Shown here piece after piece: positions 63,327-64,000 of a DNA stretch of 64,000 bases. Numbering within the stretch: the first letter of the stretch is position 1; each line of letters starts with the position of its first letter. The DNA comes from Pseudomonas sp. B21-028. Its GTDB lineage: Bacteria; Pseudomonadota; Gammaproteobacteria; Pseudomonadales; Pseudomonadaceae. The position numbers were made by a program, and so were the translations under genes. The stretch is taken from positions 1,488,001 through 1,552,000 of the forward strand of contig NZ_CP087184.1 of the NCBI RefSeq assembly GCF_024749045.1, read 5' to 3'. The notes beneath the pieces are model-generated. The model saw nothing but the letters and a program-made list of their open reading frames with translations, was not told where the DNA came from and searched no databases.

Positions 63327-63360
63327 GGCAAAAACACACCTCAGCCCCACACAAAGAACC

Positions 63361-63449
63361 TGTGGGAGCGAGCCTGCTCGCGATAGCGGCGTGTCAGACG
63401 ACACAGCTGTGCCTGGTCCTCCGCTATCGCGAGCAGGCTCGCTCCCACA
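63361..63449. repeat. REP doublet, GTGGGAGC family
   Basis: TGTGGGAGCGAGCCTGCTCG with CGATAGCGG and its inverse lie in the gap between the divergent porin and DUF6124 genes. The rest of the gap (63450-63579) contains a hairpin, GTCGCTG-CCCATT-CAGCGAC at 63538-63557, and no gene. Confidence 0.85.
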
Positions 63450-63579
63450 GGGTTCGTGGACGGTCTGACAGACGCGTCGATTTTTCCGACAAGCTTTTAA
63501 GGTTGCCGCTCGGAAGCCGTGCCTCTAGCCTTTTTATGTCGCTGCCCATTCAGCGACCGGGACTGCAAGCCCGCTGAAT

Positions 63580-63609
63580 TTGTTAGGTGCCTAGCCGCGC
63601 CCCTATAAT
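63580..63609 (+). promoter_or_regulatory. Sigma-70 promoter of the DUF6124 gene
   Basis: TTGTTA and a perfect TATAAT are 18 bases apart. Transcription would start near 63616, leaving a leader of about 155 bases. Confidence 0.7.
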
Positions 63610-63639
63610 CCATGGCGTTTTCTGATGCCATCGTTTTAT

Positions 63640-63720
63640 GGTGGCTGTGTGCGGGAGACCTTCGGGTCTGCCGAGGTTGCCTAACGACTCGGTCTTGCAG
63701 ACCCGTACACAGCTGCCACC
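63640..63720 (+). ncRNA. Structured leader RNA with a loop complementary to the downstream ribosome site
   Basis: GGTGGC and GCCACC close an outer stem that continues through TGTGT/ACACA. Inside are AGACC-TTCG-GGTCT (a UUCG tetraloop hairpin, 63656-63669) and CCGAG-N12-CTCGG (63671-63692). The 12-base loop contains CCTAACG, the exact complement of CGTTAGG at 63755-63761, which overlaps the AGGAG ribosome site. Confidence 0.7.
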
Positions 63721-63770
63721 TATCATCTGCAAGTGATGCTGGCGGCTCTCATTTCGTTAGGAGCACTATC

Positions 63771-64000
63771 ATGATCAAAGAAACACCCAATCCCCCTGCG
63801 CCCGGTTCCACCTTCCCCTACAACGACCCCGATCCAGACAAGCTCCAAGAGGCCGCAGACCGAGCACTCGATTTCCATCTCGGCACCCACCCTGATCCCA
63901 AGCCCAAAACCTCAACTCAAGTTTTCACCGTCATCGATACCCTCGACACCGAGTCTCTGCTGGCGAATCTCAGCGAAACCCTGGCTTCGGCCAATGCCAT
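63771..64000 (+). CDS. DUF6124 (DUF3077-like) protein, 5' part
   Basis: The first 76 codons are open to the window end. The start MIKETPNPP, the spacer YNDPDPDKLQEAADRALDFHL and the later SLLANLSETLASANA are typical of the short Pseudomonas DUF6124 family, whose function is unknown and which often occurs in several copies per genome. TAGGAGC precedes the ATG, and the whole gene sits behind a strong promoter and a structured leader. The protein should continue for some tens of residues beyond the window. Confidence 0.82.
   Translation, partial: MIKETPNPPAPGSTFPYNDPDPDKLQEAADRALDFHLGTHPDPKPKTSTQVFTVIDTLDTESLLANLSETLASANA

Follow-up and report, generated by a model that had tools for sequence, protein, structure and literature searches.

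C4 is a gene-silencing antisense RNA, known mainly from phage immunity and best known in phage P1. In phages P1 and P7, RNase P is described as excising the C4 RNA, which then acts on target mRNAs, and C4 RNAs have earlier been predicted in Pseudomonadales (PMC5320573). The same source describes 21 chromosomal Group 1 C4-like sRNAs with a variable a' region in Acinetobacter baumannii AB5075, for which strong expression and apparent cleavage at a GG motif were reported. Both the c4 antisense RNA and the c4-a1b1 element are listed in PMC2864571. As for the IsrK RNA and the CI RNA of P4, the former is described as capable of acting on its own mRNA, and pairing of the latter with nascent RNA as promoting termination before the gene (PMC4825925). 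The literature considered also included PMC12197685, PMC4666395, PMC9630843 and PMC11143913.

The locus studied here lies at the end of the window, i.e. the whole stretch of 64,000 nucleotides of Pseudomonas sp. B21-028 DNA that was analysed, and all of its features are on the + strand.

The leader of the DUF6124 gene

The gene encodes a DUF6124 protein of 117 aa (63771..64000, with the ATG at 63771); it runs past the window end and is complete in L030. Its leader matches the Rfam covariance model of the C4 antisense RNA (RF01695) at 63634..63723 over the full model length (1-87), with 69.1 bits against a cut-off of 45, which identifies it as a genuine C4 module and places it in an established RNA family. 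The first-pass annotation had known of no described regulator for such leaders, which was not borne out. Scanning the region against Rfam returned only C4, c4-a1b1 and sub-threshold matches. A weak isrK match (RF01394) was observed at 63538-63623, and with a score of 25.4 bits, below the gathering score of 50, an identification as the IsrK sRNA was rejected. Likewise, the P1/P7 immunity system proper was discarded, as the target here is DUF6124 and not a phage antirepressor operon in a phage. Further upstream, the window contains an inverted GC-rich repeat (63357-63453), presumably a Pseudomonas REP-type element, for which the only Rfam matches were sub-threshold and microRNA-like.

The names a', b', a1, b1, a2 and b2 follow PMC5320573 and Rfam, and their exact placement is that of the present analysis. 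Within C4, the b' loop CCTAACGA (63680..63687) and the a' strand CTTGCAGA (63694..63701) each have an 8-nt complement downstream, namely b2 TCGTTAGG at 63754..63761 and a2 TCTGCAAG at 63726..63733. The b2 segment overlaps the Shine-Dalgarno (SD) sequence AGGAG (63759..63763), and three SD bases consequently lie under b2. The complementarity of CCTAACG (63680-63686) to CGTTAGG (63755-63761) over the SD, on which the first-pass annotation centred, was recovered and extends to 8 bp. The 8-bp a'-a2 pairing and the upstream copies a1 and b1 had been missed. Of the latter, a1 (CTGCAAG, 63563..63569) is a 7-nt complement of a' and b1 (GTTAGG, 63582..63587) a 6-nt complement of b', and a match to the c4-a1b1 target element (RF03163) was found at 63525..63577 with 46.4 bits against a gathering score of 46.7. 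The predicted minimum fold of C4 plus leader (-60.2 kcal/mol, z -3.89, 1 of 200 shuffles equally good) contains the elements annotated before, an outer stem and two hairpins (UUCG and CCGAG).

A conserved upstream element of the module class to which the window belongs was located by genome pattern match at 63495..63518; this class has four genomic copies with at most 3 mismatches, and all four lie upstream of C4-DUF6124 modules. The shared element suggests that the usual transcript would start further upstream, at about 63538, where the first hairpin (GTCGCTG-CAGCGAC, 63538..63557) begins. The corresponding candidate promoter (63503..63531, with TTGCCG at 63503-63508, TAGCCT at 63526-63531 and a spacing of 17) is weak; it was placed by eye, by analogy with TTGTGC-17-TATCGT of other modules, and was not reported in a promoter scan of the window leader. 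A second promoter-like site, TTGTTA-18-TATAAT at 63580..63609, is the promoter proposed in the first-pass annotation. It agrees with the promoter consensus at 10 of 12 positions (one such site, where shuffling predicts 0.2), and its TATAAT is kept in the four close orthologues with C4 (L044, L045, L046 and L102) and was not seen in those without C4. The usual start, however, is suggested to lie upstream of this site and, since a1 and b1 sit 5', the feature begins before 63580. A terminator-like hairpin of 8 pairs, three of them G-C, lies on the 5' side of C4 (63612..63631).

C4 modules in the source genome and across Pseudomonas

On the 6.49-Mb chromosome, 35 C4 copies score above the cut-off; a further fragment (6298358, 45 nt) scores below it and was left out of all address counts. 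There are 29 DUF6124 genes in the genome, 27 of them within 700 bases of a same-strand C4. At the other two, inspection by eye showed what is likely left of a C4 3' half at gene 587291 and no C4 remnant at gene 2185959. The other eight full C4 copies precede DUF3077 genes (337507 and 347746), a QslA-like gene (870041), three related unnamed genes (836842, 1629101 and 2969726) and one further small gene (6015421), with no clear gene following the copy at 6328023. A GG stands at the C4 5' end, the first G in all 35 own-genome copies and the second in at least 90% of them. In addition, a 32-base element, CCTACAACTACGCCAGAATCCGCCGGCTTGTG, has 18 genomic matches with at most 3 mismatches (e.g. 1146037-1146068 and 741225-741256), every one of them upstream of a C4-DUF6124 module, and the reversed pattern gave 0 matches in the genome. 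This element may be a shared promoter with an operator. Two of the 27 C4-DUF6124 modules are decayed and lie beside intact relatives, at 741736-741820, without a gene start, and at 3097680-3097766, without a leader.

Across the genus, C4 was found in 53 of 59 Pseudomonas genomes (source genome included), with at least 987 copies in total, a median of at least 16 and a maximum of at least 52, at no more than 61 candidates scored per genome. DUF6124 is present in 46 of the 59 (642 copies) and DUF3077 in 45, and the numbers of C4 and DUF6124 copies rise together (Spearman 0.86 over the 59 genomes, kinship ignored). Class-wide, at least 7 of 171 genomes carry C4, comprising the source genome and six others with 1 to 3 copies, at no more than 24 candidates scored per genome; DUF6124 was found in 1 of 185 class-level genomes, which is the source genome. 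A single phage record of 50,697 contains DUF6124, at the record edge (bases 55-405), and plasmid records contain none. Within these samples, DUF6124 was found only in Pseudomonas. The nearest proteins, with 97-98% identity, are those of Pseudomonas sp. ICMP22404, PSB18, P. mediterranea and P. tehranensis (best 80 of 248 matches).

The association with C4 is also seen for the other downstream genes. C4 lies upstream on the same strand in 28 of 30 DUF3077 loci (the best locus from each of 30 genomes), and upstream in 7 of the 12 QslA-like loci found in the 59 Pseudomonas genomes (870041-870748, corresponding to L014 and L133, together with L123, L128, L129, L131, L132 and L134). At the DUF6124 loci of named Pseudomonas genomes, drawn from the best 80 of 248 matches, C4 is present in 63 of 79 cases. 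None of the 16 loci without it (L047-L052, L056, L060, L066, L070, L072, L089, L094, L097, L099 and L111) has lost the promoter side, the first hairpin or the a1 hairpin, as judged by eye, and the 16 apparently represent several separate losses of C4. Thus, persistence of the gene does not need C4. They include the closest homologues of the window gene in P. agronomica, P. kilonensis, P. thivervalensis, P. brassicacearum, P. fluorescens ISL-33 and P. frederiksbergensis (all at 81-92% identity among the best 80 of 248 matches). In these the promoter side is retained and a1 is that of the window gene, and b2 is absent, as would be expected if b2 is kept for C4.

C4 modules were likewise observed in phage records, i.e. 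vB_Pae_U10 (L165 2273-2360), phiAH14b (L166 2200-2286) and Phipami28 (L167 2203-2288), the first two near integrase/excisionase or AlpA genes. At L163 (1468-3180, - strand) an AlpA-like gene, C4 and DUF3077 stand in a row, in what looks like a prophage or satellite remnant. Viral contigs follow the address rule of the chromosomal modules given below: in 148 viral modules without the DUF6124 motif, matches of at least 6 nt were found for a1 in 133, a2 in 124, b1 in 105 and b2 in 118.

With respect to the proteins encoded downstream, DUF6124 is predicted to be helical, albeit in a poor model (pLDDT 62.9, pTM 0.30) for which Foldseek gave no match at E 0.001 or better, and no PDB relative was found by sequence. 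Comparison of DUF6124 with DUF3077 by hhalign (probability 15, E 0.0017) indicates that the two may be distant relatives, a relationship that is unproven. The same method gave no match of DUF3077 or DUF6124 to the unnamed MKRYMP-type family, and none between DUF3077 and QslA. One shared cargo fold was consequently rejected, and a DUF3077 match to 4hb1 was set aside, as no stretch passes on its own. The DUF3077 protein of L150 has the MxKxTPNPP start typical of DUF6124, likely because segments were exchanged between these two cargo families. The QslA-like profile matches PDB entry 4ng2 (E 8.6e-20), and QslA is described as an anti-activator of quorum-sensing regulators (LasR anti-activator family); the QslA-like protein of L123 had no match in phage records. 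Phage antirepressors and QslA-like proteins, taken together, hint at a pattern in which anti-regulators may often be under C4 control. A small frame lies between C4 and the QslA-like gene in L123 and L132, with a replication-like gene upstream in L123, and the Rfam radC RNA (RF01754) occurs near C4-QslA-like loci in L128 (935-1079) and L133 (2132-2276).

Address matching, proposed mechanism and alternatives

In the 35 own-genome modules, the fits of a'-a1, a'-a2, b'-b1 and b'-b2 were all better with the own than with shuffled partners (0 of 10,000 permutations each), using an anchor independent of the a'-a2 match and with the loops of 17699 and 836842 set by hand. Judged by RNAduplex energy, the own partner was the best of 35 in 19 modules for b2, 9 for b1, 3 for a2 and 19 for a1. 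When the longest exact a2 and b2 matches were summed, the own partner was best or tied in 28 of 35 modules and alone best in 23. Own matches of at least 7 nt in a2 together with at least 6 nt in b2 were present in 28 of the 35, against 16 of the 1,190 ordered pairs of different modules (a tandem duplicate accounts for two of the 16), and 19 different a cores are found among the modules. Because of these rankings, the foreign-pair matches and the a-core count, the addresses are largely, but not fully, private. In the case of the window module, none of the 34 other a' strands matches its a2 by 7 nt. Conversely, four of the 34 other b' loops of the genome match its b2, and with it the SD region, by at least 7 nt, so that a 7-nt loop-SD match is not rare when taken alone.

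The analysis was extended to 96 distinct modules, comprising the own-genome set and the C4-bearing DUF6124 loci of named Pseudomonas genomes (best 80 of 248 matches); five of 102 modules failed the anchor (G000_3097680, L121, L119, L105 and L079_2041), and one of the other 97 was a duplicate. Complementarity of at least 6 nt was found for a'-a1 and a'-a2 in 96 of 96 modules each, for b'-b2 in 87 and for b'-b1 in 62, with 7 nt reached in 92 of 96 for both a' pairings, the a2 counts being favoured since the cross-species anchor used the a'-a2 match. Among these modules there are 56 distinct combined addresses, made up of 21 a and 53 b addresses, and none of 10,000 permutations over the 56 was as good for any of the four pairings. 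Where loci share their flanks, b' and b2 were found to have changed together (691690 versus L101/L116, 5544179 versus L074 and L112, 17699 versus L120, and 96061 versus L117), where the synteny groups were formed by single linkage and some mix neighbouring modules. Co-variation of the loop and the SD across homologues, which the first-pass annotation had named as the check on its reading, is thus observed. As the b'-b2 pairing is kept across paralogues and orthologues with differing letters, it goes beyond chance. Similarly, modules 1146187 and 5705039 have closely similar leaders that differ by one and the same two-base change at each of a1, a' and a2, and near-identical frames with different addresses are found in the pairs 2759390/2761755, 1146187/1150848 and 337507/347746.

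We consider it probable that the locus operates as a C4-type antisense switch, in which C4 pairs with a2 and b2 of its own mRNA and the ribosome site is hidden. We infer processing, action in trans and repression of DUF6124 by C4. A transcript from near 63538 would pass through a1/b1, C4 and a2/b2 before reaching the DUF6124 start, and C4 is predicted from the family match and the fold to form a long stem with two inner hairpins presenting a' and b'. The C4 part would then be cut from the transcript, RNase P cutting being described for P1/P7. Freed C4 would pair by its a' strand to a2 and by its b' loop to b2, whereby the SD is covered and DUF6124 translation stopped, as the conserved complementarity and the known family suggest. 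The a1/b1 pair would serve as a second copy of the target, which either holds a' and b' in the precursor or competes for C4, and could in this way set the amount of free C4. With precursors folded from the a1 side, a1-a' pairing was predicted in 30 of 56 modules (window included) and the C4 outer stem in 21; for the long precursor of the window, a1-a' pairing was predicted rather than C4 formation. Hence, a1/b1 may hold C4 back. The mean gain on folding was -6.1 kcal/mol with swapped upstream halves versus -8.4 kcal/mol with own halves, a modest difference. Because each module has its own address, each C4 would mainly silence its own gene, and groups of modules sharing an upstream element would combine a common input with a mostly private RNA brake. 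The weaker sides of the antisense switch are the RF03163 match, which falls 0.3 bits under the cut-off, and b1, which reaches 6 nt in only the 62 modules given above. When C4 was combined with the leaders in RNAcofold, a method in which loop-loop pairs are impossible, the own target was best in 0 of 35 cases and 9,174 of 10,000 permutations were as good.

The first-pass annotation had proposed a translational switch; the structured leader and the loop complementary to the ribosome site stand, but the loop-SD pseudoknot as the sole pairing is not supported, although b' may still pair with b2 inside a single mRNA. A switch in cis, where the C4-like fold remains part of the mRNA and an unknown signal opens the b' loop-SD pseudoknot, would be compatible with the 8 bp of b'-b2, with a linker from the C4 stem to b2 that is long enough and with the presence of C4 and target within one transcript. 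Still, we regard it as unlikely, for it leaves a1/b1 and the more constant a'-a2 match unexplained. Judged from the fold, pairing of a' with a2 in cis would be strained because a2 lies 7 nt past the end of the 17-bp outer stem and a' at its far end, and P1/P7 C4 is described as an antisense RNA released by processing (PMC5320573).

The retention of a1 in 96 of 96 readable modules would also be in line with transcription attenuation as the first event, in which C4 promotes termination together with nascent a1/b1 and hiding of the ribosome site is secondary. Terminator-like sites between a1 and C4 were found in 13 of 56 modules, the window included, against 2.4 expected; the P4 CI RNA provides a precedent (PMC4825925), and the terminators are a partial likeness to IsrK. 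However, such a terminator was absent from the scan in 43 of 56 modules, and b2 overlaps the SD, making attenuation quite unlikely as the primary mode. It is highly improbable that the chromosomal C4 RNAs form an immunity library against phages or satellites with matching addresses, with DUF6124 as a passenger. Pseudomonas phages and satellites do carry C4 modules, in two cases next to AlpA or integrase genes, and IMG/VR pieces contain 159 distinct ones, but the address sharing is not convincing, with 8 of the 148 viral modules without the DUF6124 motif having both an a 8-mer and 8 nt or more of b in common with a chromosomal module (a raw count without a chance level, in which some may be host flanks), and the genes persist without C4.

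Comparison with known systems

The C4 family is known, also in Pseudomonadales, and is here encountered in a large, chromosomal, gene-linked form. The literature searched, with subscription papers, preprints and supplements outside its scope, contained no account of a C4 expansion tied to DUF6124 and DUF3077 with largely private addresses; DUF6124 was not mentioned there and DUF3077 was, in one paper. C4 is the usual leader of the unstudied DUF6124 family, its addresses change jointly at three positions, and an evident target is assigned to a multi-copy C4 family. As a tentative wider interpretation, in which our confidence is below even, an immunity RNA of phage type could have been turned into an array of small-protein switches that spans the genus and counts dozens in each genome, with shared inputs and largely orthogonal three-fold addresses. 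If this is true, the array would be among the larger natural orthogonal RNA regulator sets in a single cell, and it would steer small proteins that may be anti-regulators (DUF6124, DUF3077 and QslA-like). The C4-DUF6124 modules offer a natural collection for the evolution of antisense specificity and of privacy among paralogues, and the linkage to C4 provides an entry point for learning what DUF6124, DUF3077 and the C4-linked QslA-like proteins do.

The window module resembles P1/P7 C4 in its fold, in the positions of a' and b', in the arrangement of a candidate upstream sense copy and a downstream target within one transcript, and in a b' partner overlapping the ribosome site. In contrast to P1/P7 C4, the Pseudomonas modules are chromosomal, number about 35 copies per genome in the strain studied and have copy-specific addresses, and their target is the DUF6124 gene instead of a phage antirepressor. 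IsrK/STnc1160 of the Salmonella prophage Gifsy-1 and SeqA-CI-SeqC of P4 share with them the order of a sense copy upstream, an antisense RNA in the middle and a target downstream (PMC4825925), whereas a terminator is found in a minority of the Pseudomonas modules and the downstream genes differ. The Group 1 C4-like sRNAs of A. baumannii are, like Pseudomonas C4, multi-copy and chromosomal. While no target is named for them in the available text of PMC5320573, the adjacent gene is the evident partner of C4 in Pseudomonas and, unlike in Group 1 as described, a1/b1 and a2/b2 are readable for each copy.
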